A stretch of 64,000 bases of DNA, taken from positions 13,855,533 through 13,919,532 of the forward strand of contig NC_049997.1 in NCBI RefSeq assembly GCF_000003815.2. The letters are read 5' to 3'. Made by a program: the position numbers and the translations under genes. Source of the stretch: Branchiostoma floridae (taxonomy: Eukaryota; Chordata; Leptocardii; Amphioxiformes; Branchiostomatidae). The notes beneath the pieces were generated by a model, which was not told the DNA's origin, ran no database searches, and saw nothing but the letters and a program-made list of their open reading frames with translations. Below, in pieces: positions 41,147 to 63,684 of the stretch (the stretch's first letter is position 1; every line of letters begins with the position of its first letter).

Positions 41147-42614
41147 ATGTTTGTCCTTTTAGTTTTGGCTATTGTTTCCCTAAACGCCCTTCCCAATTGT
41201 CAAGCAGCATCCATTGTTGACATGTTGCGTATGGGGTGCAGAATTGATGATTTTGGTGGACTTTTCCCCGTGATACATTGTGACAACAAAGGCTTGACAA
41301 GCGTCCCAGAGCTGCCACAAAATATATATGAACTTCACCTGCCCAACAACAGCCTTACAGATATCCCGTGCTTGCCCTTGCCACGGTTATACAAGTTAGT
41401 CCTAAGAAACAACAACATAACCCACGTCTCCAGCGAATGTCTGAAAAAGATGCCGATACTCGCTGACATAGATCTATCACACAACCGAATTTCCTGTATT
41501 GACATCTTCTCTGATGCTTCCTTTAAGAAAGGGACACGTCTAAGAAAGCTGGATATTTCTTACAACAGGCTGACGACTTTGTCGTCTTGTGACATTGGGG
41601 TAGACATGACTAATACATCGGTTACACCATACGATGTGATATTTGACGGTAACCCTTTTCACTGTGACTGCCGCATGGCTTGGCTCGTTGTGTTGCTGAA
41701 GACGACCGCAAGATGCAACACAGGAGAGATTTGCTGTCTGTGTTTCCTTGAGCATAATACGCTGGGACTTCGGTTGTACAAGCTTAGTACAACCTCCGTG
41801 TTTCGCTGTAGCAGTCCCCCTGATCTAGCTGGGGGGGAAATGTCCTGGCTGGACATTGGAGTCTGTTTTTCTAATGATACCTGGAGATTACACAAACCAT
41901 GCTCTCTGGGCCATACTTGCCCCATGCAGGACCATAGCCCTTCTAAAGCTATCAGTATCACCACATCTTTGCCGCCACGAACAACCAGTATTTTGGAACG
42001 GTTGCAAACCAAAATTCAACTGTCAGAAATAAGTACCGCATCCCCAAGCATGGGAAGTAACACTACTGTATTGGCCATGCAAACATCAGAATACAGCTAC
42101 AGCAAAATCTTTGAGTCAAAAATAAGGGCTACTCCACAATCGGTAAGCACGCTATCCTCACAACCGATGTCTTTTGGGGGGTTGTTGACTATCATAATCA
42201 TTGTAGTCATTTTTGTTGTTTGTGGCGTGAGTCTAGCTGTTTATTGCATAATAGTGAAGCGGGGGGCTGTAAACAAAGTCCCTGATCCTCAGGTAAACAA
42301 CATTCCGGCTGCCGAAGGCCAGGCTGATAGTCAGGAAACTCCAAACCCAGATTCTGAGTCTTGTATGTATGAAACAATACCAGACGAAGTTGAAGCTTAT
42401 GCAGCGTCAGGGTATGTTTTCGATGTGCCCCAGTATCATATTGCTGATTTGGAAATGGGGAGTAGAAGGGAGACCTATAAGAGGATGGCGGCTGCAGGTA
42501 CCGCTGCTTTACCAGGTCTAGATGAGCAAGACTCTGCTTACTATGGAGAAGAGAAGATTGAGCCATACGCCACATGTTCCGAGGGTGATATTGTCTCTTC
42601 AGACGAGGACGACT

Positions 42615-42616
<2 letters not shown>
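41147..42616 (+). CDS. LRR receptor A: secreted LRR / membrane helix / one YETIP tail module, 489 aa
   Basis: Single exon; the ATG at 41147 follows an in-frame TAG nine bases upstream. Layout: signal peptide 1-20 (ends NCQA), N-cap with two cysteines (31 and 45), about four LRRs (61-145; YELHLPNNSLTDIP, LYKLVLRNNNITHV, LADIDLSHNRISCI, LRKLDISYNRLTTL), LRRCT cap from NPFHCDCRMAWL (169-180) to C240, a PCSLGHTC pair (251-258), a Ser/Thr-rich stalk with N-glycosylation sites, and a membrane helix at about 344-370 followed by KR. The cytoplasmic tail (371-489) carries one module: MYETIPDEVEAYAASGYVFD then VPQYHIAD (408-434). It ends in an acidic SSDEDD. YETI fits both a Src-type SH2 site (pYExI) and a YxxPhi sorting signal. 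Function is unknown; surface recognition is inferred. Paralogues follow at 52840 and 61132 on the same strand. Confidence 0.9.
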
Positions 42617-42649
<33 letters not shown>

Positions 42650-43010
42650 CAATCAATCGATGATACAAACAAACAAAGAATAAGCGAGCAAACAAACAAA
42701 CAAACAGACAGCCTACCAATCAATTGAATTAAACCCGTATAAGTAAATGCCTCTACCTAAGGACTAATCAATCAATTAATCAAACAAACAAACAAACAAA
42801 CAGACAATCATTCAAACAAACAAACAAACAGCCTACCATTCAAGTGAATTAAACCCGTACAAGTAAACGCCTCTACGTAAGGACTAAACAATCAATCGAT
42901 TAATCAATCAATCAATCAACCAATCCATCAATCAACTAGCCATCTGATCACTCAATCGATTGATCCATCGATCACTCAATCAATTAATCAAAGAAACAAT
43001 CTAACAAACA
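42615..43010. repeat. Compound (AATC)n/(CAAA)n microsatellite with a duplicated block
   Basis: Runs of AATC and CAAA tetramers begin at the stop codon of LRR gene A. An approximately 80-base block (CAGCCTACCAATCAATTGAA then TTAAACCCGTATAAGTAAAT) is present twice (about 42708-42769 and 42830-42889), each flanked by tetramer runs. It is part of the presumed 3' UTR. Confidence 0.75.
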
Positions 43011-43379
43011 ATCAAACGCTCTGTCCTACTAACCATCTGTATGTTAGGACGACCTGCTCAATGTTACCACTGTTTGGTGGTCCCTTGGCTCATTTTCCCC
43101 ACTTATCCAGGAAATAAGCATCCTGTCTATAGTGGCTACTTGTATTTCGCTAAATAATGCCATTCCTATGTAAACGTGATATCATAACATACCTTAATGC
43201 ACGAGTATAAAACCCTTAATTCGTTTTAGTCACGTCAAGTAAAAAAGTTTATTCATTGTAAAACATATACTGTAGCTTCCAATCTGTTACTTAATACATA
43301 CCTGTACATAGACTACACCCCAAGTTCCAAACCTATAAATCAAGTTTAATTTATGTTCTTGTTCTGAAGGTTTGTCTTC

Positions 43380-43540
43380 GGGTTTTATTCTTGTTGTTTA
43401 ATTTGAAGTATACGTTAACCAGTTGAGTTGATTATGTGTGTTCTATGAGAAGTGTAAATGTACGTATGTGTTGGCACCCAATATCAACTAAGCTGCCTGG
43501 GTTTGCCATGTATTACATTGTATATAAATCTGAATTGAAA
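43380..43540 (+). repeat. 3' flank of LRR gene A, repeated upstream of LRR gene C
   Basis: About 150 bases (TTCTTGTTGTTTAATTTGAA ... GAGAAGTGTAAATGTACG ... GCCTGGGTTTGCCATGTATT) are clearly repeated in the same orientation at 60690-60835, in front of LRR gene C. This is most simply a remnant of the tandem duplication that made the gene cluster. Confidence 0.65.
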
Positions 43541-43659
43541 ACAATTGTAACAGGTACAATGTAAGACAAATAGTTGAATGAGATGTATTGCATTGTATAT
43601 AAAATTGAATTTAAAACAATTGCAACAGGTACAGTGTAAGACAAATAGTTGAATAAGAC
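43510..43659. repeat. Two-copy 75-base tandem repeat
   Basis: Two direct copies begin GTATTACATTGTATATAAAT and GTATTGCATTGTATATAAAA; each ends AAGACAAATAGTTGAAT. They lie in the 3' flank of LRR gene A. Confidence 0.75.
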
Positions 43660-44016
43660 TAATGGTAATGCCCTAATTACATTAATCTAGCACAACCTAC
43701 CCGTAGATTCGTCACTAATAACAATGAGCTGTTGTAGGTCTACTACACTACTTAATATACCGATACTAGTAAATCGTGACTTTACGATTTCTTTAATATA
43801 TGTCTATGACAGTTGCTGTACAGTACAGTATATCTTACATTCATATATCCTTTATTGATGGACATTTTTATTCTTTTATGCATTATCATATCCTGGTACA
43901 GGGGCTTTCCTATTATATCCCGGGTACTACTACACAATATGTATTTTATTCATATGTGTAGAACGGGAAAAATTCTTTCTCTCATCAAGTTATATTGATT
44001 ATCTGTGTCGGTAGTA

Positions 44017-44191
44017 ATCATAGTAGAATGCGGAACTTTCATCCAACACAAAGGTATACACGGATCAAATTTTCAACGTCACTTTATTCCATACAATGCA
44101 GAATTGATCCTGAAGAAAGTGACAGTGGTCGTTGAAAATTTGATCCGTGTTTACCTTTATGTTGGAAGAAAGTTCTGCATTCTACTATGAT
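44017..44191. mobile_element. Foldback MITE, 175 bases
   Basis: The left arm ATCATAGTAGAATGCGGAAC then GGATCAAATTTTCAACG pairs with CGTTGAAAATTTGATCCGTG and AGTTCTGCATTCTACTATGAT. The loop is about 30 bases. No coding sequence. Confidence 0.7.
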
Positions 44192-45199
44192 TGAGAGCAT
44201 TCTTCTAAACTTGCTAATTGTGCGACTATAAGTAAACTATTAACAACATTATGACAAGATGAGAGACAAAACAAAACAAAGCTGTTTTGTTGCATACACT
44301 AAAATCTCCATGTCTAGATGATGTATGGACGATTTAAACATATAAAAAATGTTGAAAACTATGATTGAAACACTTGTTTCTTTAAATGTCACCTATCAAT
44401 TGAATGCTAACAATACGAATATGCGTGTGTTTGGAGCTATTATACTTTGAATCAATTTTAAAGTTTTAGGAGTTACAACTTCAACTGTGGGCTATCAAAT
44501 CTGGGTATTTCATAATCTATGACATGTATTTTTACATAGCAGTTGGCAAACGGCCACGTCACCTACGCAGCATATTTTGAGTTTCACGAGGAACATGAGC
44601 CAAGAACATATACAAAGTGTATGTTTTTTTTAGAATCGTAGCAGTCTAGGAATGTATTTTTTGGGTGTAGAATACTTATATGTATATATGATCCTGTATT
44701 ATACATGTATTTGATCTGTATATGGAAATGTTTGTATTATGCCTAAAATGTTGTTTTTCCTGTTGCCCGACCGACCCAAGCAAAATCTACTGAACCTCCC
44801 TGCCTCGGGCTTAAACTTCCCGTAGCGCTAAATTTAGATCGGCGGGCTGACTGCCTTGGGCCCCCGAATAAACTGGCTAGCTGCCCGATTCAGGCTGGCA
44901 TCCACTGGTAACCGAATGTAGCCTTTTCTTGGTCGACCGCTAGCGCTAGTACTTTGATGGACATTAAAATTTTGATCTGACATCTGAGTCATGAAAATAT
45001 CGGAAAACCGTTTGCCAATATGTTCTCTTCATTTAGGTTTAAATAGTAAATTGTGCCTGTACAGTGTATATCTGAATAAATATTTGAATATGATGTTGAA
45101 AACACAAGTGTACTGATGTTTTTCAAATTTTACATTATCAAAAATTTCTTGTTAGATCATTAGAATTTCCACCTATACCAATATCATTTTACGGGCCTG

Positions 45200-45818
45200 T
45201 AAGGCCATATTGATTTGCATATAAGGATTCCAGCAAACAGGAACCTCCAAATTGATGCTCGAAAAGAAACTATGAACAAGAAAAGTTGCCTTTATTATGA
45301 AATCTAAATAAGGGGTCAGGAAGTTTGAACAAATTTACTGAAAACATGGAGTATGGTATACCGAACAATAGATCCTTCATTTCTGTTCTTTCACATCTTC
45401 TTCTACGATCTTAGAATTGAACTTGCCATTCTATGACATTTATGATAATATTAGAATCTAGTAGACGGTTTTTCTAGAATATATATACTGTAAATGCATT
45501 TAAGTTCGCGGGGATTTAATTTCGCGGTAGCGGGGAAAATGACTTTTCGGGGTGGATTTAATTTCGCGGTAACACCATCGACTGCGATCTAATACCTTTA
45601 TAGAAAAATGTTCGCGGTGGATTTAAGTTCACGGTAAAGTGGTCGCCGCGAAAACCGCGAACATTAATCCACCGCGAACATTTCTGCATTTACAGTATAT
45701 TTGCATTCTATTTCATACCTTTGCTCATTTCCAGCTGCTTTGTACCATTTATAGTATGGATGAAAAGTTTTTTATCTATTTTTGAAAACGGTGCCATTCA
45801 TATAATCAAATGACCTTA
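45200..45818. mobile_element. TAAGGCCAT-type MITE carrying a nested MITE
   Basis: Outer ends TAAGGCCATATTGATTTGCA and (complement) TATAATCAAATGACCTTAA match the family member at 36906-37267. The 619-base length includes the MITE family 1 copy at 45486-45697, so the older element was about 405 bases before the insertion. Confidence 0.6.
45486..45697. mobile_element. MITE family 1, copy 5, nested
   Basis: A full-length 212-base copy with intact TA-CTGTAAATGCATTTAAG and TGCATTTACAG-TA ends, inserted within the TAAGGCCAT-type element. Its intact ends make it a comparatively young insertion. Confidence 0.85.
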
Positions 45819-45844
45819 ATGAAAACACACGCTTTTACAAACAC

Positions 45845-45847
45845 GGG

Positions 45848-45903
<56 letters not shown>

Positions 45904-45922
45904 CGTTCATGCATACACACAA

Positions 45923-45953
<31 letters not shown>

Positions 45954-46265
45954 CACATGCATACACACACACGCACGCACGCACACGCACACATGCACGC
46001 ACATACACGCGCACTTGCACGCACATACACGCACATCATGACATACATACATACATACATACAGTAACACACACACATGCACGCATAGGCGCAGATATAC
46101 ACACATACACAATTACGCACACACATACACACGTACACACACACACTTACGGATGCATTTAAAAAAACACACACACACAAACACACACGCATACACACAG
46201 AGACGTACACACACGCGCGCGCGCATTTACTAACACATGTGCATTTACAAACACACACACAAACA
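45845..46265. repeat. CA-rich microsatellite, about 420 bases
   Basis: Almost continuous alternating CA with GCAC, TACA and ATAC interruptions and short AT and CG runs. Translations give artificial Cys-Val or Thr-His repeats and do not represent a gene. Alternating purine-pyrimidine DNA of this length can adopt Z-DNA. Confidence 0.9.
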
Positions 46266-46963
46266 ACATATCTACAAAGACTTTTACACATTTAAGTTGC
46301 AACTTACCATTGTAACCCTGTTGAGCGACCGCTTCTTCTTTGTCGATACAAACTTTGTTTTTCGTGATGTGAAAGTTCCGTTACGTAAATATATTAGTCT
46401 GCTGTGTTCATCATGTACAACCTAGATTGGGAAATAAACCGTAAATTAGTTTTGGGAAAGCCTACAAAACAGGACGGTGGAAGGAAGACCAATCAAGTAA
46501 CCACTGTCCTGATGACGTCACACTATTTTTTCGCCACTTCGCTGTCCTACAGGCACAACAGGGGCGGCTTCCTTTTTATGTTCATCTTTCTGTAAGGTAA
46601 GCTTACCATTTTATCAAATAGATTATGGTGGCACGAAAAGAGAAGATAGAAAAGTGTCACTAGCAAATGCAATGATATGTTTAACAAGTAGCTTTTAACC
46701 TAACTATAACGTATCAAAGCTGCGGTCACAGTCGTGGTGGGTTTTCGTACAATTCTGATGTAGAAGGATTTTCAAGCAGGCTGTGACAGAACCAACCACC
46801 GACATTTTGTGTACTAAGATAGTTGAACGTTGCAGGAGACGTACATTTTGTTACAAGTTAGCGATCTAAACTTGCACGATCAAAATGCCCTCAGTTTGTG
46901 ATCGTACGACGATCGTACGACGGATGTTCTGATATGTGTTCCCATGCCAATTTGATTCAAAAC

Positions 46964-47680
46964 CTTGGAAATGTGCACTTTCTCAGTAATGTCATTTAAT
47001 ACAAACATTAAAAAGAAACGACCCTACATTGAGTACCTTGTTTTCGGAAATCAATTATGCATATATAGTAGACAATATTTCAATACAGGAGATTGGGCCT
47101 TGGTAGGTTTGGAGCATTGTATACACACAACCCTGGATTTTCACAGTTATCCATTTTTGCTCAATAGTTTCCACCTAGGCACTTCCAAAACCTTCGAATT
47201 TTGCACTTTCTCAGTAACGTTATATGCCATTTTGCCATGCAAACATTAAAAAGAAACGTCCCTAGATTGTGTGGCTTGCCTTCGGAGACCATTCAATTAT
47301 GCATATATTTATGAGAGTAGACAATATTGCAATACAGGAGATTGGGCCTTGGTAGGTTTGGAGCATTGTATACACACAACCCTGGATTTTCACTGTTATC
47401 CATTTTTGCTCAATAGTTTCACCCTAGGCACTTCGAAAACCTTCGAAATGTTCACTTTCTCAGTAACGTTGTATGCCATTTTGCCATGCAAACATTAAAA
47501 AGAAACACCCCTACATTGAATTGAGTACATTGCCTTTAAAGATTATTCAATTATGCATATATTTATGAGAGTAGACAATATTGCAATACAGGAGATTGGG
47601 TACTGGTTGGCTTGGAGCATTGTATACACACAACCCTGGATTTTCACATTTATCAATTTTTTGCTCAATAGTTTCATCCT
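46964..47680. repeat. Three-copy tandem repeat, about 240-base unit
   Basis: Each unit has GCACTTTCTCAGTAACGT, CAAACATTAAAAAGAAAC, CAATTATGCATATAT, AATACAGGAGATTGGGCCTT, GGAGCATTGTATACACACAA and TTGCTCAATAGTTTC in the same order. Units start near 46964, 47205 and 47447. The short open frames inside simply repeat and do not look like a gene. Confidence 0.8.
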
Positions 47681-48161
47681 AAGCATTTGATACCTTGTAG
47701 TGGTATTAACGTTAGTTACATAGTAGATTACATGTTTAATTTTACGGACATTGTGGGTACGATATCTTACGTTGTTTTAACAACAGTTAAGCACGACAAG
47801 AAATTTGAAGTGGCCTCCAGCCGAACGGGAACCTTTCAAATTAATCGGCTTCATGTCATCCTTCCCCGAAGCAATACACGCAAGGCTTGAATGAAAACAA
47901 AACCTTAAATATTACGTGGACATCAAAGAAAAGGAAGCATGGTGAATGGCGAGGTCATTTCGTAGTAGGATTTTGGTGCCGTGAAGACTTTTCAAACAGG
48001 CTGCAGCAGAACCATACATAGCCAAGTATCTAAGACAGCAGTTTTTAAGCTACATTTTGCAGGATACATTCGGTGTCATACAGCCAGAAAAGGCTCGTCT
48101 GAGGAGTCTGTGAGTAATTTTTCCAAGCAGAGGTTTCGGTCTTGTGTCGATATTTTTAACA

Positions 48162-48336
48162 TCACATTTCCAAAGCGGAGCCTGGAAACATAAAATAGAC
48201 AAGTATACGAAAAATATAGTTTTACACAAATAATGCCCACGACCATTTTCTTTAAGTCTTGTGTTGTGTTGTGTCTTTTATATCATACTATTCGTTCCCG
48301 AAAGCTGCCCGGCCGGGCCCTGTTTTGGAAATGTGA
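48162..48336. mobile_element. MITE family 2, copy 2
   Basis: Ends TCACATTTCCAAAGCGGAGC and GGCCCTGTTTTGGAAATGTGA match the element at 4147-4346; TTTTATATCATACT and CGTTCCCGAAAGCTGCCCGG are shared internally. The left arm has decayed relative to copy 1. Confidence 0.7.
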
Positions 48337-48386
48337 TTATATACGATGAACTGTTGACAGACGAGTAAGGCATTTTTCTATTGCAG

Positions 48387-48451
48387 GCTTTGGTACGACA
48401 CAGCAATTCCAGTTGTTCCAGGGCCGGATGTAGCTGCAGATTTGCTCATAG
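48387..48451 (+). other. Lone exon-like segment
   Basis: Sixty-five bases between TTCTATTGCAG and GTATGTTG have good splice signals. They encode, in the frame with one base left over at each end, LWYDTAIPVVPGPDVAADLL I. The composition looks like protein-coding sequence, but I find no partner exon. It may be an isolated pseudo-exon or part of a gene that I cannot assemble. Confidence 0.2.
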
Positions 48452-49366
48452 GTATGTTGTTTTTGGCTATATTTTGTCCATCACAGTTCGATTTTAAACC
48501 CTCAATATTGACAGGAAAGACATCGGCAGAATTTCATGTCGACTTGAGTACACATTATTTTTTTTTACAAGTGTGGATTGTTAGATACTCATGCTGTCTT
48601 GTCTTTTTCTAGTTTTTGTGGAACTTAATTTTGTATGTATCTGATGGCTAGACATAATGAGAACTTAATGTCCCCATACCTAACTGTTAGCTGTTATTTC
48701 TTTCATTGATATGACAAGATATCAGATAAACAGCTATTCTATGACAAAAAAAAGTTTTGTACAGTTTATACATTTGTCAAAGTCTTTTTAAAGACGCTTT
48801 CAGTGTGTCAAAATGTGTTTAGTGTGTTTAGGACGAATTTAATGATTTTTAGCCTGTCACCAAAACGTCCGAGTGGCACTATAAGATTATTATAATACTT
48901 TTTTATCACCAGAAGATCTGTGAAGAAAAACTGGCTCACGAGGCAAGGGCGTGCCTAGGGTCGTCGAAGCCGGTCTTCACAGATTGTCTTGCGGTCAAGA
49001 ATAGAGACAAGGGCGAGTCCAGCGAGTCCTTTCATCGGTCAAGACTTGTGACTGGTATTTCATAAGACTAGAAACAACACAGACATTTTACAGTACTGTA
49101 CAATATCGAAAGAAGAAGAAAGCTTCTAAACTTGGATATCACATGTATGTACCTCTTGTTTAGTACTAAGTAGATACTAAGTGCTTACAACACTTCCGTA
49201 AAAAAAGTAAAATATTTTTACCTTGCTTCGTCACTATAAATATTTCTACTTTTCCTGTAGGAAACCTGTCAGACTTACCTCATAATCTAACACTAACAAG
49301 GCGGCAAAACACTAATTATATTTCAGCCATACATAGTATGGTGAAATATATTGTATTCGTAATGTT

Positions 49367-49393
49367 TCTTTCTTTCTTTCTTTCTTTCTTTCT
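49367..49393. repeat. (TTTC)n microsatellite
   Basis: About six and a half TTTC units. Confidence 0.85.
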
Positions 49394-49551
49394 CCTGTCA
49401 AATCTTCAAAGTGATTCATCTCCGCCGTTCCTGGACCGAATGACCTGAAATTCGGCACAAGGGTAGAGTGGGCCAATACCTTGATGCTTTTTTCTCATTT
49501 TTTTCATATCTGCCTCTAAAATGATTTTATTGAGATTTTTTGGTCAATTTT

Positions 49552-50100
49552 AGACCAAAACTGTATATTTTGGCCCCTGTACCTTGGTATTACAACCAAA
49601 TGAGCTGAAATTTGACAGAGATGTGCCTTGGTAATGCCCCCATATAAATTCGATAACACTTTCGGTGTACAGTACAACAAAATGCTTATTTTTGCGATTT
49701 TTTGACCAATTTTTGACCAAAAAAGGACACTTTTGGCCCCTGTACCCTGGTATTACAACCAAATGAGCTGAAATTTGACAGAGATGTGCCTTGATAATGC
49801 CCCCATATAAATTCGATAACACTTTTGGTGTACAGTACAACAAAATGCTTATTTTTGCGATTTTTTGACCAATTTTTGACCAAAAAATGACACTTTTGGC
49901 CCCTGTACCCTGGTATTACAACCAAATGAGCTGAAATTTGACAGAGATGTGCCTTGGTAATGCCCCCATATAAATTCGATAACACTTTTGGTGTACAGTG
50001 CAACAAAATGCTTATTTTTGCGATTTTTGGCCAACTTTTGACCAAAAAAGGACACTTTTGGCTCCTGTACCCTGGTATTACAATTAAATGACCTGAAATT
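49552..50100. repeat. 163-base tandem array
   Basis: Four direct units, with TTGGCCCCTGTACC anchors at about 49570, 49733, 49896 and 50058. They share GGTATTACAACCAAATGAGC, TTTGACAGAGATGTGCCTTG and ATAAATTCGATAACACTTT. The last unit is partial and passes into the larger duplication that follows. Open frames on the minus strand are by-products of the repetition. Confidence 0.8.
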
Positions 50101-52609: not shown

Positions 52610-52740
52610 TTAAGAGGATGTTCCATTTTTGCGCAGGGGTGATTTGGAACAGTCCAGTGTTGCGTGGGAAGGGGTATGGCTGAAATATGCTGTATTTGCT
52701 CTTAAGCAAATGTCGGCCTTTCTAGTTTTACATAGGTGTT
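52610..52740. repeat. Interspersed repeat upstream of LRR gene B
   Basis: GGTATGGCTGAAATATGCTG then TATTTGCTCTTAAGCAAATG and CGGCCTTTCTAGTTTT occur on the opposite strand at about 29235-29300. GTATGGCTGAAATATAAT also occurs near 29478. It lies 100 bases before the LRR gene B start, so its 5' UTR or promoter is partly repeat-derived. Confidence 0.5.
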
Positions 52741-52839
52741 TATATAAAGTGTATACATGCAATGATACAGAGCTAAATTACCTTGTTTGTATAAAGTCAA
52801 CCATTGTTGTTTTGTTTATGGCAAAGTTTGCACCCCAAG

Positions 52840-54399
52840 ATGCGACGCTCGCACAGATCTAGCCGACTTGGGCTCCCAAGCAGGATTGTAGTTTTGGCTT
52901 TAGTCCTTGTCTCTCTGAATACTATCCACGACTGTCAGGCTAAAAAGATTCCAGAACTGATCAGCTTAGGGTGTGAGGTCTCTGATCTGTACAGTGCTAA
53001 TCTACTTGGGATACGCTGTGACAACATCGGACTATCCACCATTACCAAACTACCCCAGTCACTCTTTGAACTTTGGCTTCCCAACAACGACATTACCACA
53101 TTTCCATGCATGCCATTGTCGTATTTAAACAAACTAGTCCTACGAAACAACAGCATCGCGTGTTTCCCTTGGAAGTGCATGAAAAACATGCCAAAGTTGA
53201 ATTTCTTAGATCTTTCGCAAAACCAGCTTTCCTTCATTAATCTTTTTCCTGCGAAAGGTTTCTTAACCTTTCTAGGGAAGGTGGACGTTTCTTATAACAG
53301 CATTAAGACATTGTCTTTGTGTGATATAGGTATCGACGCCACAGAAGGCTCGACTATACCATATGAAGTGAACATAGGGGGTAACCCTTTCCACTGTGAT
53401 TGTGACATCGCTTGGCTCATTGACGTGGCAAAAATAGCCAAAAAGTGCTGGGGGTCGATATCGACTTATTGTCTGGACTTTTTGGAGGGGGACATGTTTA
53501 CAACCCAGATGTACAACGATCAGTCCTCGTTCCGTTGCGAAACTCCTTCTAGCCTAAAGGGTACAGAGCTCAATAGGTTGGACATTTCAAGCTGTATTTT
53601 ATCGAAAACGATGGAACGAAATGAGACCTCGCGCCATATTCAAACTCCCTGCCTAATAGACAAGTCTTGCGCTACAGAAAGCCTTGATCTTGCTACGTCG
53701 TCTTTGGCAACAACCATTAGTTCTAACCGAACACAGGCAAGGGAGACATACAATACGTCTCAAAAGATGGAAGAATCATCTAACGTTACTGATTCTACCT
53801 TTATGCCTACTTTGGTTGATACAGATATTTTCAGCCAGCTGAAAACAACGCCAGTAATGCTAACGCTTAAACCAGAAATGTTGAACACCACCTCTGTGTC
53901 AGATATGACAGAACCAGTGAGCATGTCGTCTGAAATAACCGAAGTCGAGATATCAGGGTGGTTCATGACTACTGTTGTTGTTGTTTTGGTTGTTGTTGTT
54001 TGTGGTGTGATGTTAGCTGTGTATCGGGCGATGCTCACAAAAGGACAAAGTAACGTAAACAACATGGCGAATGGTGTAGTTTTCAACAGCATTCCTACAG
54101 GTAATACCAGTCAGAATGACCAGGCTGATGATCAGGAAAATATATATGAAACTATACCAGATGGAGCCGTCCCGTATGCAAAGTCGTATACATTTGATGT
54201 AGCCCAGTATCATATTGGGGACATCCCTGATAACATTCAGAACACTGATACGATTGGTGATCAGAATGGCACGAGCAGCGGTGTGAAATCAGACCCGACT
54301 GCTCCCATGTATGAAACCATACCTGACAAGACTGAACCTTACTCACAGTCGTATGTTTTCGAGGTACCCCAGTATTACTTGGGGGATGGACTAATGTGA
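52840..54399 (+). CDS. LRR receptor B: LRR / membrane helix / two YETIP tail modules, 519 aa
   Basis: Single exon. The first ATG in frame is 52840 (MRRSHRSS...); stop TGA at 54397. A basic N-terminus precedes a hydrophobic signal segment (16-34, ending DCQA). Layout: two-cysteine N-cap (45, 60), LRRs 75-160 (LFELWLPNNDITTF, LNKLVLRNNSIACF, LNFLDLSQNQLSFI, LGKVDVSYNSIKTL), LRRCT from NPFHCDCDIAWL (182-193) to C252, a PCLIDKSC pair (270-277), a Ser/Thr stalk with several N-x-S/T sites, and a membrane helix at about 374-396 with the VVVVCGV core shared by its paralogues. The tail has two modules, IYETIPDGAVPYAKSYTFDV then AQYHIGD (435-461) and MYETIPDKTEPYSQSYVFEV then PQYYLGD (490-516), and stops three residues later. 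Eight tail tyrosines fall at matching module positions. Ligand and partners are unknown. Confidence 0.9.
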   Translation: MRRSHRSSRLGLPSRIVVLALVLVSLNTIHDCQAKKIPELISLGCEVSDLYSANLLGIRCDNIGLSTITKLPQSLFELWLPNNDITTFPCMPLSYLNKLVLRNNSIACFPWKCMKNMPKLNFLDLSQNQLSFINLFPAKGFLTFLGKVDVSYNSIKTLSLCDIGIDATEGSTIPYEVNIGGNPFHCDCDIAWLIDVAKIAKKCWGSISTYCLDFLEGDMFTTQMYNDQSSFRCETPSSLKGTELNRLDISSCILSKTMERNETSRHIQTPCLIDKSCATESLDLATSSLATTISSNRTQARETYNTSQKMEESSNVTDSTFMPTLVDTDIFSQLKTTPVMLTLKPEMLNTTSVSDMTEPVSMSSEITEVEISGWFMTTVVVVLVVVVCGVMLAVYRAMLTKGQSNVNNMANGVVFNSIPTGNTSQNDQADDQENIYETIPDGAVPYAKSYTFDVAQYHIGDIPDNIQNTDTIGDQNGTSSGVKSDPTAPMYETIPDKTEPYSQSYVFEVPQYYLGDGLM

Positions 54400-54992
54400 C
54401 GAGAGAGGAGACATTTTCGTGAAAATGCAAAAGTAAAAGTTTTCTTGTGGCCTTTTGTCAAGCTACTCACACACAATACCGTTAGGCTAACCCTATAGTA
54501 TTGTGTGCGAGTATAAATGTTAAATAAGAGGTACCCTATATCTGCTTGTTTTGGCCAGGTCATTAACATAATTATACTACTGAGTATACCACCAGGATCG
54601 CCCTATTGTATTTTTTTATCAATTTGTTTATTTGTTCAGCTGTTAACAAACAGCCAGGCCTGTCCAACTAGCCGTGTGCGAGTAACAAAAAGGGTCACCT
54701 TACATCTACTTGTTTTTTAATCAGGTCATTAGACTAATTATACTATGCCATTAGGCTCGTCCTATTTTAAGCTCTGATTGGTTAATGTCGGGAAAATAAA
54801 TAATAAAAAGAAAACACCTGCAAGAGCAATATGTTTTTCCTATAGGAGGAAACATGAATGGACGAATAGCACTACAGACACTTAACTTTATTTTATAGAC
54901 AACATGGCCGTATGCATACAACTTACAAGGTCTCACAGGTGTAAACAATGTCATAAATAGGGCAGGGGATGTTCTTAAGGGTGAGAGAGGGG

Positions 54993-55454
54993 TGAGTGAG
55001 TGTGTGAGTGAGTGAGTGAGTGAGTGAGTGAGACGAGTGTACACGTGAGACGAGTGAGTGAGTGAGTGAGTGGGACGAGTGAGTAAGTGAGTGAGTGAGT
55101 GCGTGCGTGAGACGAGTGAGTGAGTGAGTGAGTGAGTGAGTGAGTGAGTGAGACGAGTGGGTGAGTGGGTGGGTGAGTGAGTGAGTGAGTGAGAGTGAGT
55201 GAGTGAGTGAGTGAGTAAGTGGATGAGTGAGTGAGTGAGTGAGTGAGTGAGTTAGTGGGTGAGTGGATGAGTGAGTGGATGAGTGAGTGCGTGAGTGTGT
55301 GTGTGAGTGAGTGAGTGAGTGTGTGAGTGAATGAGTGAGAGGGGTGAGTGAGTGCGTGCGTGAGTGAGTGAGTGAGTGAGTGAGTGAGTGAGTGAGTGAG
55401 TGAGTGAGTGAGTGAGTGAGAGAGAGAGAGTGGGCCAGTGAGTGAGAGAGAGAG
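54993..55454. repeat. (TGAG)n satellite, about 460 bases
   Basis: Long runs of GTGA/TGAG tetramers are broken by short GACGAG, GTGCGTGC and GGTG insertions that recur at intervals, so there is a loose higher-order unit. The minus strand reads as Leu-Thr-His-Ser repeats with no stop for 169 codons; this is a consequence of a stop-free tetramer and not a gene. Confidence 0.9.
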
Positions 55455-56394
55455 TTTAGTATATGACTTTATAGTTGTATCCAATGTAATGTATCGATGT
55501 TATTGTGCGTATTCTAGACTGTGAATCATTGTACAAACAAGTTTACGTTAGTATGCATCAATGTATGGTGAGAATCAAGTAACGATAAACGAAAACACAA
55601 TTGCTGAGTCGAGCAATTTATATTGATTTTGATACCGATATTGAAAATGTACAAATTGTATGCTGACACTGTTAGGAGAGTTTCCCAAATGGGGCACGCG
55701 TGTTTGGTCTTATCTATTCAGAAAATGTCGTATATAAGATATAGGAAAATACGCCTTTACATTGTGAGCATTAGGTGACCAGCATATGCTCATTACGAAT
55801 GCATATATGATGTGCACAATGTTGTAAAATTACAGCACTGACTACTACGACTAGCGTTTAATGACCCACCCGAGGTGTTTATAGAAACATAACACGCAAC
55901 CATCGATCTATGGCTATAGAATAAACCACCGAGTGAGCGAAGCAAAATAGTAATCAACCATCAATTTGGAAAGTAAATGTAGCTGCCGTATGTATTTAAA
56001 TTTGTACCATACCACTCCTTGTGAATTTCATGATTTATGTAAAAGATGTATAGAAATTGTGTGAATACATTTAGGAATGTCATTGGTGTATATCACATTG
56101 ATTTAAGTGGCGTAGTTTCAAGAATGTTCAGGAGTTATTGAAATGTTATTGTAAAGTAAGTAGTAGAGATGCTCTCATCGCTGTGCGTCGTTCTTAGAAG
56201 TTTAATGTGATGCACGCCTTTTGACATATTTGTAGAAATTTTGGATCAGAGTTGAACTGTAATTTCCGACCTAAAAACTGGACTTACCAAAAATGTTCGA
56301 CTATCCTACTACAGTCTATGTCAAGGAATGGCCAATCAACGGCTTCTGTGACTTCATGTTATGCAAATAGAACACGTACGATCATGGGTACTCC

Positions 56395-56477
56395 CGTGAA
56401 TGTGAAAAAATGCCGCGAATGTGAAAAAATGCCGTGAATGTGAAAAAATGCCGTGAATGTGAAAAATGTTGTGAATG
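56395..56477. repeat. 19-base minisatellite, about four copies
   Basis: Tandem units GTGAATGTGAAAAAATGCC with one or two substitutions. Confidence 0.8.
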
Positions 56478-56849
56478 GGGAATAAAAATAAGACTTGCAC
56501 TTTTAAACACAGCATAAGTGTCTTCTGTCAGACTTATTGGGCAGGGATTCTAAGCAGAACTTTCAGACCATTCACTTCCGTTCTAGATCTTTTAACATGG
56601 CTGAAATTATGTAAGAAATACATTAATCCCCAGATACTGCTGGGTTACACAGTAGTCATCTAATAGACATGCTACACAGTTTCTCGTTGGTCCTGCTAGT
56701 AGCAGACTGCATCCGTAGAAACAAACGGCCCTATCAGAGCCCTCGGTACATCTCAAACTTGCCAAGATTACTACATGTATATAGTGGACCTATACAAGCG
56801 ACCCCCTTTGCAGAATGAACTTCTGGATAATGTGGCCACTTTTTGTTTG

Positions 56850-56975
56850 TCTGAACCTTTGTTTATTCATGCAAGCTCAAATCGGCCTGCAGGCCGCTTT
56901 TCATTGAGGTCATGAGGGAAGAGGCAAGGGTAGACGTAAAGTAACGTTATATAACAGAGATACAGTTTGCCTAAC
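56850..56975 (+). mobile_element. LINE-like 3' end repeat, copy 2
   Basis: TTTGTTTATTCATGCAAGCT then CAAATCGGCCTGCAGGCCGC, TTTTCATTGAGGTCATGA and TATAACAGAGATACAG match the copy on the opposite strand at 28800-28960. No protein is preserved. Confidence 0.45.
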
Positions 56976-59317
56976 GAGTCTTACAAGTCTATATACACAA
57001 TTACAAATTGTTACATACATGGTACAAAATACATGCCTGGTAGTGCCTTAGATTATTTCCTTATTACTTCCCTAATAGTCTACTGTGACTATGTGCTTAA
57101 TGTCCCTCGAGTCAAAATAGATAGTATTGAAATTCTATATATATATAGATTCAAAATTTCAGCAGAGTTGCTTGTTTCGACGGGGGCATGGTTTGATAAG
57201 TTTTTAGGTACCTCGGCACGCGTATCTCTGTTTGACTTGGAAACAAAACAGGTCAGCAATTTTACTGATTGAAAATGAAGTCTGCAAACGAAACATTTGG
57301 AGCACACTTCTATCACGTGAACAGTAGGTGTGACGTCATGCCGGACCAATCAGAATCCTTTCTATTTCTATGGAAGGTGCCACAGGGAGCGGTAGACATC
57401 CGAAGGTTGTTTCAGGCTATTTTGGCAATTGAAAAGTAAAAGACATCGAAGTAACTCATAGGAAGACAACTACATTCCAAGTCACCGCGAGGGTTGCCAT
57501 TGTCATCATTTACAAATGTTTTCAATTGTTTTCAATTATATGTCTAGGAGATTTCATAATTTAGAAATATTTTGAACTTTCTAGATATTTTCCCCGGTGT
57601 GTAAAACCTTTGAAATATTCACGGTGTGGAACAGAATACTTCTAACAGTTGTTAAATAATATGGTGACAGCATTTTTCCATTATTTATTACCATTTTCTA
57701 CCATTTTTTGTAATATTGGGTCAGTGGGCTTGGAAGAAGCAATTCACACATCCTTGCAAAGTATGGTTGGGTGTCATGTCATATCCTACCACAAAGGACC
57801 CACCAGTGCCCATCAGTGAAATCTAAAAATATACCAAGCAGACAAAAGGGGCTTACTTTTATGGGGCAATAAATTAATTCTACCATTTGGCAAGGTTTAC
57901 CATTTTTTTTGTAAATATTTTTAAAAGTAAAAGAATCCTTCAGATGTTTGAAAATTATTGTAATTAAAGAGATTTTTGTGTGATATCTTTCAAAATGTTT
58001 CCAGAGTATTCAAAGGAATTCAAATACATTCAAATACATTCAAAATTGCTGGATTAATTGTGAAAAGATCGAGTCTGCAACTTGAAAATGATAAGGAAAT
58101 TCAACAATGTTTTCTTCGATAACAATATTTTATTTGTGGGTGCTTCCTTGAATGTATGTTGCCTTAATTCTTGCTTTTGTTAAAAATGAAACCATATTTT
58201 TAGTCATATTTGTAAGCAGACAATTTCGAGATTGGGTTTAATATAACTACGTAATAGATTTGATCGATTCTATAAAAGTTACCCAGACAATCAACGTCAA
58301 CAAATTCGTATCTCTGAAATTCGTTGAGTAATCTACGAGCCCCGCAGTGCCACACCGGTGCCCCAAGTGCAGTGAGATACCACCTTTAGTGGCACTGAGG
58401 ATATTTTGTGGGAGAGCAGGTTACTATGAATTGAAATATTGTCTTTATGCCCCAGTGGAGGGCCATGTAGTTTATTTCGTCTTCTTTCCTTGACATTTTC
58501 CTACTTGTATATCAAAACAAAATTACAACAGCCAGTTTTCATCAGATTGTCTGGCCCAGTTAGCCTGGACACGTGATGTACTATATATATTTCAACTATC
58601 AATTCTCTCTCAAACATCCTTAACCGAGCACGCATCCAAACGATTCGCCAAAAAAGGCTACGCAATTGAAAATTCAATACTTTGCACTTCATTTGTGTTG
58701 AATGGAAAGTTTAGACTTAATGTTAAATCGTGCATGTTACGGTTCGATTTCAAAGATATAACAGCCCCGCCATTCGTTCACCCATATTGTGTACGCCTCG
58801 CCTGTTCCTGAAACCAGGTTGATTGGTTACCTCCATTCATAACAGTCGAACATAATGACAGGCACTGATTGGTCTACGTTCTGCCAGATCATTCATGATG
58901 TCTGCAAAAAAGCAAGGTTGCTTGCGAAACAATAACCACGTGACCAGCTACATGTATCAATTGGGGTTGGGTGAATCAGTATTATTTTTCTTCACTCCAC
59001 AATCAAAGGGTGCCACACTCGGTATAGCATCAGATGTAGGTACTCCCATAAAACAAATTAAACCCTTCCTATGTCACACGACGTATAGGATGGTGCCCAT
59101 CTCCGTTTATATAGCCTTAGGCCACACAGCGGAGCAAGCGCGACAGTAGGGGCAAGGCAACTAGTACCAACTAGGGACTAAAGTAAGGTAAGCTAAGGAA
59201 TTTTTTTCTTTTGTCGGCCACAGAAAACAATACTTTAGCTAACAAAGGAAGGGTCAGAAAATGTACAAATTATATTACGTCGATGAAGGTTAGACATCCA
59301 GGTAATAAGATATGCCA

Positions 59318-59515
59318 AAAAGTAGTTACTCAAGCAACTGGATATGATTTTGGTAATGGTCAGACATTTCAGACACCATATGATGTCTTTCTTTAGTGAC
59401 ACGCTAGGATATGATAAAACTCCCCAGTGCCACTGACGATAGACACCAGATGGTATTCGAAACGTCTAACCGTTTCCTAAAGCACATCCAGTTGCCTGAG
59501 TATTGCTTTTTGTGA
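59318..59515. mobile_element. Foldback element with CAACTGGATATGATTTTGG arms
   Basis: The left arm ACTCAAGCAACTGGATATGA then TTTTGGTAATGGTCAGAC pairs with GTCTAACCGTTTCCTAAAGC then ACATCCAGTTGCCTGAGTAT. A single arm of the same family is at about 1575-1640. Confidence 0.55.
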
Positions 59516-60030
59516 TATTGTATGAGGTTTTTTTGGCGCCATATTTTTTACTGTTCTGCTGATATGGTGGTAAGTCTGTGTACGTGTAAATGCCATACTT
59601 AACGTGCCGCACTGTTGTGGTACATGTGTCGTATAGTCGTGGTACACGTGAAATGCGCCCTAACCGCGCCCCAGACCTTTGAATATTGCAATGTCTTCGA
59701 AGATAATAGATACGAAGTGTGTGTTTTCTGTTGTAAGAGAGTGACTTTTTTACATGTTGAACTGCGGACTATATTACAACAAGACAGTGCAAGCACCATA
59801 TTACATACATGTGTGTAGGGGTGCCAGAATATTATATCGCGAAGTCCCCTAAGGTGAGGTAGACAATTAGGCTACTAGTATTTTGTATGTGGAATTTTCA
59901 GTAGGTCTTTCATGTACGACACAGTGGGTTGTTTACACTATAGAGTATTTAATGGCTGAATAGATGTTGTCAGGGTTGCATTGAAATATTTTAAGCTAGG
60001 GGCACAACTCGACGTACGTGCAAATACGCG

Positions 60031-60314
60031 CTGTCTACATGCCAAAACGTGGGCAATCTTTTGGGATCCGTAAGTGGTAAGTCCCGCCTCTGTACGAACT
60101 CATAGGGAATCCAACGGATTTTGAAGCTCGCAGACACGCCGTAGAACGTAGAACGTTACTTTACGTGCAGGCAAAACTTTGTGTGCCGTGCGTTGACTTA
60201 CTCTCTGCTCTTGCCAGTTGTTTCCCACGTTTTCAGAAATACGTGGCGGACGTGGCCTCCCAAAACAACGTACGGACAAACCGCATGTATGGCAGGTTGT
60301 GCCCTTAGTTTTAG
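60031..60314 (+). repeat. Interspersed repeat, copy 2 (partner at 14394-14642)
   Basis: Same orientation and block order as the 14.4 kb copy: CTGTCTACATGCCAAAACGT, GGGATCCGTAAGTGGTAAGT, CGCCGTAGAAC, ACGTGCAGGCAAAA, GTGGCCTCCCA and GTTGTGCCCTTAG. It contains about 35 bases (CTCTGCTCTTGCC...) missing from copy 1. Confidence 0.6.
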
Positions 60315-60689
60315 TAGGTCTTGTACGCACGACTGTGAGTGATAGACACTCGAGAATGCAATTGCTGAATAGACATTGGCACGCTGGCACAGAATTTTTT
60401 GTAGGTTTGTATTTTTTATCCCTAATGGAGATTCAAATAAAACAAACAAATAGGAATTGATTACAAGCCCTTAATCTTTGAAATATTTCCCAAAACTCAT
60501 TTCACTTCGAATTCCCAGTTTGAACAATAAACTGACTTCTTGTTTTTCTAGTACAATTTCAATATCTTCTCCGTACTAACTGATCGCTTCTATTGCATTG
60601 GATATATTCAGCGCACCATGTTCTTATCCACACACCTTGTGCTTTTGGATGTGCTAATAGAATGTTGTCATTTGTTACATTGTCAATAA

Positions 60690-60835
60690 TATCAATCTTG
60701 TTGTTTCATTTGAAATATCCGTTAACCATTTGAGTTAATTGTGTGTACTCTAGGAGAAGTGTAAATGTATGTGTTGGTCCACAATATCAGCTACGCTGCC
60801 GGGGTTTGCCATGCATTTCATTGTTTGCAATCTCA
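60690..60835 (+). repeat. Remnant of an LRR-gene 3' flank
   Basis: CTTGTTGTTTCATTTGAA, CGTTAACCATTTGAGTTAAT, GAGAAGTGTAAATGTATG and GCCGGGGTTTGCCATGCATT match the 3' flank of LRR gene A (43380-43540) in order and orientation. No LRR coding sequence precedes it here, so a copy was probably deleted or the duplication breakpoint lies here. Confidence 0.6.
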
Positions 60836-61131
60836 ATAAGTCAAATCAAATGGAATTCAATTGAATTGAATATTTTCTTGGTTTCTAGGAAATCAGCTTG
60901 ACAGGCTTGAAGAAGGGTGTCTGACCCTAACTAAAGAATAGCTGTGCGAGCCGGCTTGCAAGTCGCCAAGGTCGCCATCCAGTCAAGAGTAGCATTGAAT
61001 GAACTTGAAAACAACATCTTCTGTTCACTGTACAGTCTAGAATCTAATGAGTAGTACCTCGCCTTGCTTATAGTCCGTCAACCCTAGGCCTCAAATATTC
61101 TAGCGGTTGTACATTTCCCACCCAAACAATC

Positions 61132-63684
61132 ATGTCATATTCATATGTACCTACCAGACCTTCAACACCACCAAATATGTTATTTCTTCTGGGTCTCGCC
61201 ATTTTACTTGTAAATTTAGTACACACTGGCAATTCAGCGGCAATTTCAGAACTGATAGTTCTTGGGTGTGATGTCGACATTGCTCAGTTTTCCGTCACAA
61301 TGCACTGTGATAACAAAGGCTTAACTAGTGTTCCTACAGAGCTACCAAGCTCACTCTTTGACCTTCAACTTCCCAACAACGCCATAACTACATTCCCGTG
61401 CATAACCCTACCGTATTTGAACAAGATTGTCCTGAGAAACAACAGTATCAAACATTTTCCGTGGAAGTGTCTAAAGAACATGCCGAGATTGTTTCTTTTA
61501 GATTTGTCAAAAAATAAACTCGTCTGTATCAACCTCTTTCCAGTCAAGACTTTAGTGCCGAACCTCAAAGACTTGAACATTTCTTACAACAATCTTAGAA
61601 CTTTATCCTCCTGTGATCTTGGAACGGACAGTGCTCGTGCAAGTAGTTCGGTGATGTCATATTCAGTGAGCATGGGGGGAAACTCTCTCCACTGCGACTG
61701 TAACATAGCTTGGCTCATCAGCGCTGCCAAGACAGCTCAACGCTGCAAAATCGAAATATCAGAATTTTGTTTTGACTTAATGTCAAACAATATCATGGGA
61801 CTTGAGTTGTACAAGCACCTGTCCCTGTACCGTTGTGAAACTCCCGTTAATATAGCTGGTGCGGAGATCCATAGACTGGACGTGTCTGTGTGCTTTACAG
61901 GGAGAAACACAGGTCTGAATGAAACACTAAATCTGAACCAACCCTGCTCCCTGAACAACCACTGTACCACAGATAGCTATGATGGCTCTGCCTCGACCAC
62001 GGTCCTGAGTACAACTCTGTCGGTACTCCAAACAAGTACTAAGGAACTATCACAAACTAGTAAAGCGCCTAAACCACACCAGACAATAAAATATAGCGCT
62101 TCTCCCAATGTAGATAGCTCTTTCGTTACCAATGCTTTTACAGCAACAAGAAAAAGAGCAACAAAAACAAAAACAACATCAACAAGTATAGAAGACGACA
62201 TACACTCTGTATCGGGAATGACAGAAAAGAGTAATCAGACTTTAAAAAAGTCATCTCCGCCACCCGTTGCTATGGTTTCAGGATGGATACTGACTCTCAT
62301 AATTATCATAGTAGTTGTCGTTGTCTGTGGTTCAGTATTAGCTGCAGTTTTTGTCGTGATGAGGAAACGAATGGTTGCTAAAACTCCCTCACATTTTTAC
62401 GTGGTGGATGGTCACATTGTAAACAGTCCTCAAGGACACACCAACCAGTGTAACGGGGTTGATGATCAGAAAGGCTGTAGGAGTAGTCAAAGAAAAGATC
62501 CCCGCACTTATGACGACACACCTGGCGACGTCACGCCTTACGTAAAGTCGTACACTTTCGACGTACCGCAGTATCATCTTGGTGATGTTCCATTCGACAC
62601 GAGTACAAGTGTAATGCGTAAAAAGCGACCTGACAGCCACGTGAACAAGATGGCGGTTAACACTCCCATATCTAACAACATTCAAACAAACCAGTATGAT
62701 GATAAGAAAGGTTGTATCGAAGATTTAGACCATATCTATGAAACTATACCCCAGAAAATTCGTCCATCAAATCACCTTGGTGATATCAAAGCATTGCGAA
62801 GTAAGCAAATTGACAAAAAAGCCTCAGGCAGTCACGTACACAACAGAGCAGCTAGCCAAGTTGTAAAAAAGACTCCCAGACGCAAAATTAGTAATAAGAA
62901 AGACCAGTTTGATGGTAAGAAAGGGTGCAGTGGAGATTCAGAAACAGATTACGATTCCCACACGTATGAAACTATACCTGAAGGATTGGGAGATTATAGG
63001 AAGGCACATGCACCCGATGTTCCCCAATGTCATATTGGTAATATTCCAAATGATATCAACAGGGTGATGCGTAGGATGCTACTGGACAAAAATTACGTAC
63101 AAAACATGGAAGCCAGACAATCTGTGGCCAGTACTTCCAATCCTCAGGTTAACAATAACAGTCAGAGAAACCAGTTTGATTACCAAAAAGGCTGTAGCAA
63201 AGATATACACGCAGATTACGATTTATCCTATGAAACTGTACTCAAAAGGATGGAAGCTTACGAGTCACATACTCTCGATGGTCGCCGAAATTATCTTGGT
63301 GATACGGAACTGAATGCTCGTAGGAAGCAAATTGACAAAAGCGCCCCAAGTGTTCACACACGAAACATTGCTGCCAGACAATCCAGTGAAAATTTAGAAT
63401 CAGATTACGACTCCTGCACGTATGAAACCATACCCAAGCAGGTCGAAGCATACGGAGAGTCATATGCTTTCGATGTACCCCAATATAATTTTGATGATGA
63501 GGGTGTTGATATCAAGGCAATACGTGAAGCCCTTGACAAGAATGTCTCACATAATAACCCGAGCAAAACGTCGACTGGCTCAACTGTAAACATTACCACT
63601 AAGAAGGACAAAGTTAATCAGGACAGTTATGGGGATGGTCTGGAAACAGATTCCGATTATTGCACATATGAAACTGTACCCTAG
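61132..63684 (+). CDS. LRR receptor C: LRR / membrane helix / about six tail modules, 850 aa
   Basis: Single exon from the ATG at 61132 to TAG at 63682. A second ATG at codon 16 would give a cleaner signal peptide (17-35, ending GNSA). Layout: two-cysteine N-cap (46, 59), LRRs 75-160 (LFDLQLPNNAITTF, LNKIVLRNNSIKHF, LFLLDLSKNKLVCI, LKDLNISYNNLRTL), LRRCT with NSLHCDCNIAWL (184-195) to C254, a PCSLNNHC pair (271-278), a long Ser/Thr/Lys stalk, and a membrane helix at about 385-409 followed by RKR. The 440-residue tail is a tandem array of a unit of roughly 70-90 residues: NQ(F/Y)D..KKGC, an acidic stretch, YETIP, PY..SY.FDVPQYHLGD, then a basic RxMRRK..DK...N.AARQ stretch. YETIP-type sites start at residues 460 (YDDTP), 536, 612, 700, 764 and 846. 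Later modules have lost parts (second module lacks the SY.FDVPQY block; fourth reads YETVL). The last ends at YETVP-stop. Confidence 0.9.
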   Translation: MSYSYVPTRPSTPPNMLFLLGLAILLVNLVHTGNSAAISELIVLGCDVDIAQFSVTMHCDNKGLTSVPTELPSSLFDLQLPNNAITTFPCITLPYLNKIVLRNNSIKHFPWKCLKNMPRLFLLDLSKNKLVCINLFPVKTLVPNLKDLNISYNNLRTLSSCDLGTDSARASSSVMSYSVSMGGNSLHCDCNIAWLISAAKTAQRCKIEISEFCFDLMSNNIMGLELYKHLSLYRCETPVNIAGAEIHRLDVSVCFTGRNTGLNETLNLNQPCSLNNHCTTDSYDGSASTTVLSTTLSVLQTSTKELSQTSKAPKPHQTIKYSASPNVDSSFVTNAFTATRKRATKTKTTSTSIEDDIHSVSGMTEKSNQTLKKSSPPPVAMVSGWILTLIIIIVVVVVCGSVLAAVFVVMRKRMVAKTPSHFYVVDGHIVNSPQGHTNQCNGVDDQKGCRSSQRKDPRTYDDTPGDVTPYVKSYTFDVPQYHLGDVPFDTSTSVMRKKRPDSHVNKMAVNTPISNNIQTNQYDDKKGCIEDLDHIYETIPQKIRPSNHLGDIKALRSKQIDKKASGSHVHNRAASQVVKKTPRRKISNKKDQFDGKKGCSGDSETDYDSHTYETIPEGLGDYRKAHAPDVPQCHIGNIPNDINRVMRRMLLDKNYVQNMEARQSVASTSNPQVNNNSQRNQFDYQKGCSKDIHADYDLSYETVLKRMEAYESHTLDGRRNYLGDTELNARRKQIDKSAPSVHTRNIAARQSSENLESDYDSCTYETIPKQVEAYGESYAFDVPQYNFDDEGVDIKAIREALDKNVSHNNPSKTSTGSTVNITTKKDKVNQDSYGDGLETDSDYCTYETVP

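Follow-up and report, generated by a model that had tools for sequence, protein, structure and literature searches.

A 64,000-nucleotide stretch of the Branchiostoma floridae genome (G000:C19:13855533-13919532; hereafter the window) encodes three leucine-rich repeat (LRR) receptors, g1, g2 and g3, whose tails carry a tyrosine-based module. Across the family to which they belong, this module is strongly conserved and repeated within proteins, and within the genome (a 513.4 Mb assembly in 431 pieces) it is nearly restricted to this one type of ectodomain. We interpret the genes as single-exon germline LRR receptors in which the tail would serve as a multivalent phosphotyrosine docking strip, a reading to which we assign a probability of roughly 0.55. 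Neither the module nor its deployment in a whole repertoire is described in the open-access papers that our searches brought up, and both are probably new; LRR transmembrane (TM) receptors with tyrosine tails are known.

A conserved tyrosine module in a dispersed receptor family

The three window genes are intact single-exon open reading frames (ORFs) on the + strand (489, 519 and 850 aa), each with an in-frame stop less than 300 bases 5' of its ATG; an intron may still lie in the 5' untranslated region. They follow a common plan of hydrophobic leader, LRR ectodomain, extra Cys pair, Ser/Thr-rich stalk, one TM helix and tyrosine tail, with leader and helix called from hydropathy alone. In g2, the N-cap pair is C45 and C60, four LxxLxLxxN units start at residues 75, 96, 120 and 145, and the extra pair is C271/C277; the C-cap is of the HCDC type. 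Fourteen Cys columns are kept in >80% of 22 aligned family members (g2 lacks one of these), and the Cys of the VVCG core in the TM helix in 68% of members. The two-Cys N-cap, four LRRs, extra Cys pair, Ser/Thr stalk and VVCG helix reported in an earlier note on this DNA are thus all seen in the trio. Its statement that the paralogues share every segment holds for this anatomy, but is slightly generous for g3, whose middle module copies lose several core tyrosines.

LRRs are the sole domain recognized by Pfam in the three proteins, g2 falling 0.4 bits below the LRR_8 cut-off, and NCBIfam returned LRR matches only, far below its cut-offs. Because the Pfam LRRNT match was marginal (E 0.08, in one protein of the trio) and LRRCT had no Pfam match in g1–g3, the N- and C-caps are called from the Cys pattern and from the fold similarity shown by a weak model. 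The AlphaFold ectodomain model was poor (mean pLDDT 53.1, from an alignment of three sequences), so its fold matches support no narrower assignment than an LRR protein of the extracellular kind.

Pairwise identity among g1, g2 and g3 is 36–41%, and synonymous change is near saturation (ectodomain synonymous divergence, dS, 1.6–2.4). The ratio of nonsynonymous to synonymous divergence (dN/dS) in the ectodomain is 0.18–0.30 and indicates long-lasting purifying selection, with the usual doubt attached to saturated dS. Despite near-saturated synonymous sites, the first module stays 50–64% identical. One module and a degenerate copy are present in g1, two in g2, and six, including degenerate and truncated ones, in the ∼440-aa tail of g3. 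The occurrence of three LRR receptors with a tyrosine tail is confirmed and is not a chance pattern.

Searched with g2, the genome yielded 93 matches; scoring covered 83 of 953 first-look candidates, which makes the family counts lower bounds. At least 47 matches reached E ≤ 1.3e-41, on 15 scaffolds, with 14 on C15 and 8 on C13. They represent at least 46 genes, since L049 (C7) holds two ectodomains in one frame, and a weaker match that carries the module, L050 (E 4.3e-20), brings the count to at least 47. L051 lies on a 23.6 kb contig and, at 99% identity, could be a haplotype duplicate of L045. The tandem cluster of three described earlier therefore stands as three genes in the same orientation but not as the extent of the system, which comprises 46 or more dispersed genes. 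A tblastn search of 10 kb upstream and 20 kb downstream revealed no fourth copy, nor did C19 show one among the 83 of 953 candidates scored in the genome search.

The sequences analyzed comprised the trio, 19 of the 43 other genes (L051 being truncated), L050, the 3' parts of L054 and L055, and L052 and L053; the screened set held 27 proteins. The module consensus is [YETIPD]xxEPYAxS(P)YVFDVPQYH(L/I)GE(V/I)E, with the core EPYAxS(P)YVFDVPQY. At E < 1, a profile seeded with 13 copies detected 43, spread over 21 of the 27 proteins, with one to four copies per protein (six by eye in g3). Six proteins lack the module: the tail is degenerate in L042 and short in L043 and L054, L051 is truncated, and L052 and L053 are distant relatives. 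Thirty-eight copies scored above 10 bits, compared with a best score of 6.7 bits among 10,000 shuffled tails (none above 10 bits), a test made partly circular by the 13 real modules that seeded the profile. The best of 6,324 control ORF fragments, including those from ∼100 kb on each side of the window, reached 7.2 bits, and none exceeded it.

Mean pairwise identity was highest in module 1, at 59% (171 pairs, 19 members), followed by the LRRs (54%), N-cap (46%), C-cap (44%), TM helix (39%), juxtamembrane segment (38%) and stalk (30%); the comparison favors the module, as it leaves out three of the 22 aligned members without a full tail or recognizable module (L042, L043 and L051). Among the 21 first modules, the tyrosine is kept in 20 at EPYA, 20 at VPQY, 16 at SPYVF and 13 at YETIP, and a YETIP-like motif occurs in 12 of the 21 tails. 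The module proposed in the earlier note is therefore real, but YETIP, taken there as its heart, is the less conserved end, and the core is EPYA...VPQY.

The 24-base codon pattern for YVFDVPQY was found at 22 places in 513 Mb, versus 0 for the reversed control, and 21 of the 22 lie behind a family ectodomain. Searching the genome with the tail alone yielded 75 matches at E ≤ 1, all 53 candidates being scored; the 66 at E < 1e-3 were retained. Of the nine dropped, eight coincide by position with family loci, and the other lies outside them (C7:23652319, E 0.36). The 66 matches fall into 38 loci, and in 36 of these a family ectodomain lies no more than 2.5 kb away in the same orientation. One exception is an L047-like TM-plus-tail fragment on C10 (G000:C10:2674992-2675627 and L056), which sits next to a tandem repeat and lacks an ectodomain in the neighboring 0.9 kb; the other is a short tail remnant on C16. 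No YETIP-like motif was present in eight LRR loci outside the family (L001–L008).

No Pfam family reached its cut-off in the tails tested (best E 0.017, far below cut-off), and the PDB gave no credible tail match (a single match, E 1.6) and none for the module profile. With matches at chance level in both databases, we reject the tail as a known domain, in line with the earlier note's view of it as unfamiliar and as the mark of a dedicated receptor family. No description of this family or tail was found among the top-ranked open-access literature, and YETIP and FDVPQY had no match in open-access literature; the portion of a survey of amphioxus innate receptors available to us (PMC2575513) contains nothing describing this family.

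Related receptors and competing readings of the tail

The closest published precedent is BbLcLRR, an amphioxus LRR-TM receptor found in gut BbLck immunoprecipitates, for which PMC8211107 reports phosphorylation of three tail tyrosines by Lck, binding of SHIP1 after T-cell receptor (TCR) stimulation, and lowered TCR signaling in Jurkat cells; its sequence is GenBank MW390887. An LRR receptor with a phosphotyrosine tail is therefore not new as a general idea. Like the family described here, BbLcLRR is a lancelet LRR-TM protein with four LRRs between LRRNT and LRRCT (by SMART). Its tail, which is phosphorylated on tyrosine, is the counterpart of the family's tyrosine tail, and it is expressed in the gut. 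Unlike the family, it is described with a WSC domain and the motifs DDYATV, HDYSEV and HDYDDP. Its ectodomain may be distantly akin to that of the family.

Bf66946 is a variable lymphocyte receptor (VLR)-like protein of Branchiostoma floridae that is reported to bind Gram-positive bacteria (PMC4731796). Its structure (PDB 4xsq) matched g2 in sequence (E 1.2e-07) and, from the weak model, in fold. It probably shares with the family a small lancelet LRR solenoid, but it has five LRRs and was picked among LRR-domain-only proteins, and the accessible text mentions no such tail (PMC4731796). The ectodomains of GPIb alpha and Slit2-type proteins likewise resemble the family in being Cys-capped LRR structures, with sequence matches and fold matches (the latter again from the weak model). 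GPIb alpha also has a mucin-like stalk and a TM segment; to our knowledge, neither it nor Slit2-type proteins have such a tyrosine module.

Toll-like receptors share the LRR ectodomain and TM helix, but no TIR domain was detected by Pfam in the three whole window proteins or their tails, and no Ig family appeared at E ≤ 10 in the three proteins. VLR genes are incomplete in the germline and are completed by assembly of LRR cassettes, whereas the window members are complete germline ORFs; g2 does match VLRC and Bf66946 in sequence, its fold matches deriving from a low-confidence model (pLDDT 53) with the LRRCT unmatched in Pfam. The family is thus distinct from Toll-like receptors, LRR-Ig proteins and VLRs, among which the earlier note did not recognize its tail.

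In the reading that we prefer, the ectodomain, probably a small Cys-capped LRR solenoid on a mucin-like stalk, would bind extracellular or microbial ligands, and a probably disordered tail would string together one to several tyrosine modules. Upon receptor clustering, a Src-family kinase would phosphorylate the module tyrosines, and SH2 or phosphotyrosine-binding (PTB) proteins would dock, as the precedent of BbLcLRR suggests. Additional module copies would raise valency, so that different members could set different signal strengths. In Src-family sites the tyrosine is often preceded by acidic and followed by small residues, a preference that EPYA would suit. The pYExI-like sequence pointed out earlier would be a candidate Src-family docking site; its tyrosine is present in 13 of 21 first modules, and YETIP-like motifs occur in 12 of 21 tails. 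We infer phosphorylation, kinase, partners, ligand and immune role, with BbLcLRR as the analog.

Several observations weigh against a multivalent docking strip common to the family. Sixteen of 52 ectodomain loci have no nearby tail match at E < 1e-3; three of these (L040, L041 and L044) nonetheless carry the module by profile, so the tail-only search missed divergent tails. In L042, L043 and L054 the tail is short or degraded. The cores DYATV, DYSEV and DYDDP of BbLcLRR occur in 0 of 21 family tails. Immunoreceptors with tyrosine-based activation (ITAM) or inhibitory (ITIM) motifs share with the family a tyrosine-based tail on a single-pass receptor, but the 21 tails hold no ITAM (a YxxI/L pair), two ITIMs ([ILVS]xYxx[ILV]) and one immunoreceptor tyrosine-based switch motif, no NPxY or PPxY, two YxxP, seven YxN and nine YxxM, and none of the standard motifs accommodates the core tyrosines. 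Constraint is weak in five close pairs (whole-protein dN/dS 0.46–0.69), looser than over the old divergence of the trio. Module dN/dS was 0.83 for L046/L047, 1.40 for L035/L036 (six changes), 0.29 for L034/L048 and 0.17 for L032/L037, and was not computable for L045/L051; in so short a module these ratios are not reliably low, and they count against a simple picture of a constant tail.

The FxNPxY sequence is the endocytic signal of the low-density lipoprotein receptor, and YxxPhi is a clathrin-adaptor signal. As FDVPQY resembles FxNPxY with Val for Asn, the module might act mainly in trafficking, recruiting clathrin adaptors or PTB-type endocytic adaptors, which we regard as unlikely. The fixed F-x-V-P-Q-Y spacing, with F.[VL]PQY in 19 of 21 tails, favors such a role, as does YxxPhi, which is found somewhere in 18 of 21 tails and takes in 16 of 18 YETIP tyrosines, as the earlier note had proposed for YETI. 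That proposal does not extend to the core, where YxxPhi covers 0 of 40 tyrosines at EPYA, 0 of 27 at SPYVF and 3 of 33 at VPQY, so a code built solely on pYExI or on YxxPhi does not fit the family. YxxPhi is, moreover, short and frequent by chance, the Asn of NPxY is absent from all 21 tails, and trafficking alone hardly accounts for several conserved tyrosines and their repetition. A phagocytic amphioxus LRR receptor, FrLRR, lends some plausibility to uptake, though it is predicted to be glycosylphosphatidylinositol-anchored (PMC10199209).

Slightly less likely still, in our view, is a phosphorylation-independent linear site for one constitutive cytoskeletal or adaptor partner, with the tyrosines as aromatic contacts. 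Residues other than tyrosine are indeed kept among the 43 modules (P11 in 38, S15 in 38, F19 in 35, V21 in 35 and Q23 in 36), and the middle tyrosine position holds 27 Y, 5 H and 4 F. Position 12, however, holds 40 Y, 1 H, 1 N and 1 gap, and position 24 holds 33 Y, 2 C and 8 gaps; neither is ever Phe, which argues for a role of the hydroxyl.

It appears very improbable that these genes are retro-copies without activity or duplicates in decay, with a tail that now has no role, even though they are single exons, the tails of L043 and L054 are short, and a stop lies inside the matched stretch at 4 of the 47 strong places (one being g1, where it falls just before the ATG). Open frames of 351–934 aa span 45 of those 47 places (280 and 281 aa at the other two), the module is preserved in the trio despite near-saturated synonymous change, and the 14 Cys columns are conserved.

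A more far-reaching form of the docking-strip reading is speculative and, we think, doubtful: a lancelet-specific repertoire of at least ∼46 germline LRR receptors might use EPYAxS(P)YVFDVPQY as a private phosphotyrosine code with a dedicated SH2 or PTB reader, gene-converted ectodomains and signal tuning by repeat number, forming an independent LRR immunoreceptor system beside the VLRs of jawless fish. The docking-strip reading itself would give an invertebrate chordate a defined set of receptors, with a plausible immune function, whose putative signaling tail is among their most conserved parts. The conserved core (EPYA...VPQY) is now told apart from YETIP, which catches the eye more readily but is less conserved, and the small size of the module allows it to be tested directly with peptides, making the phosphotyrosine partners of an LRR repertoire outside the VLR system testable.

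Divergence and exchange within the family

A recent tandem triplication of the window genes is rejected by their low identity and high ectodomain dS, and the trio formed no group in the best tree, built from 25 ectodomains, or in any of the 200 bootstrap replicates; 12 of 22 inner branches were unresolved, and no well-supported branch rules out such a grouping.

Recent exchange is seen in L032/L037 (C2, 5.57–5.58 Mb). Nucleotide identity is 85–96% over the first 700 aligned bases, from leader to C-cap, and 39–63% thereafter, while dS rises from 0.11 in the N-cap and LRRs to 0.49 in the C-cap and 1.0–2.3 beyond. This sharp drop within the C-cap indicates that gene conversion or recombination has joined a swapped ectodomain to a stalk and tail that are diverged. 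A hypervariable LRR concave face is not supported: exposed strand positions averaged 1.52 bits, compared with 1.43 bits in the rest of the LRR region, though strand positions 2 and 3 were high.

Individual members depart from the common plan in several ways. L049 (G000:C7:19313600-19316500) has two serial LRR ectodomains, a single TM helix and a three-module tail in one open frame. L053 (G000:C5:17932100-17933700), a distant single-exon LRR receptor, has this module replaced by a tail that repeats YENPEG twice, presumably a Grb2-like YxN site; tyrosine repeats may therefore have arisen more than once among these receptors. The stalks of L055 and L054 (C13, 1.73 and 1.76 Mb) consist of long MTEMTQALD-type repeats, and the frame of L054 stops at YETMPD, within the would-be first module. 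L033, L037, L046, L047 and L048 have a second shared C-terminal end before the stop, composed of QWF, a variable stretch and SGL. On C15 (G000:C15, 18.66–18.69 Mb), four ∼350-base fragments with in-frame stops match g2 residues 14–135; these N-terminal remnants are regularly spaced, each starting 1.7–2.0 kb ahead of a family ectodomain.

Features of the window

The coordinates of the receptor features are given in Table 1. At its start, g3 module 4 repeats DNA that is also present in modules 3 and 5.

Table 1. Receptor genes and their parts in the window (window coordinates)
Feature	Position	Strand	Basis
g1, single-exon receptor gene, 489 aa	41147..42616	+	ORF list, Pfam
g1 ectodomain: two-Cys N-cap, four LRRs, C-cap, extra Cys pair (residues 31-258)	41237..41920	+	
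g1 TM helix, VVCG core (~residues 345-370)	42179..42256	+	hydropathy
g1 tail module 1 (Y408, YETIP...FDVPQY)	42368..42448	+	profile
g1 degenerate module 2 (Y465...EKIEPYATCS)	42539..42580	+	weak, E 0.04
g2, single-exon receptor gene, 519 aa	52840..54399	+	
g2 ectodomain (residues 45-277)	52972..53670	+	
g2 Ser/Thr-rich stalk, N-glycosylation sequons	53671..53952	+	
g2 TM helix (~residues 374-399)	53959..54036	+	hydropathy
g2 tail module 1 (Y436)	54145..54225	+	profile
g2 tail module 2 (Y491)	54310..54390	+	profile
g3, single-exon receptor gene, 850 aa	61132..63684	+	
g3 ectodomain (residues 46-278)	61267..61965	+	
g3 TM helix (~residues 384-410)	62281..62361	+	hydropathy
g3 module 1 (Y460, YDDTP variant, full core)	62509..62589	+	profile
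g3 module 2, YETIP, core missing	62737..62778	+	weak, E 0.02
g3 module 3, two core tyrosines replaced by H, C	62965..63045	+	profile
g3 module 4, degenerate core	63229..63303	+	by eye, no profile match
g3 module 5, full core	63421..63501	+	profile
g3 module 6, YETVP cut by stop codon	63667..63681	+	by eye

Elsewhere in the window, a frame at 34605-35186 on the - strand contains a partial GSKIP domain (Pfam E 5.9e-13), and an FkbM-type methyltransferase exon lies at 25512-25892 on the + strand (Pfam E 1e-05). A polycystin exon (L010:4899-5591) is located ∼14–15 kb past the window end.

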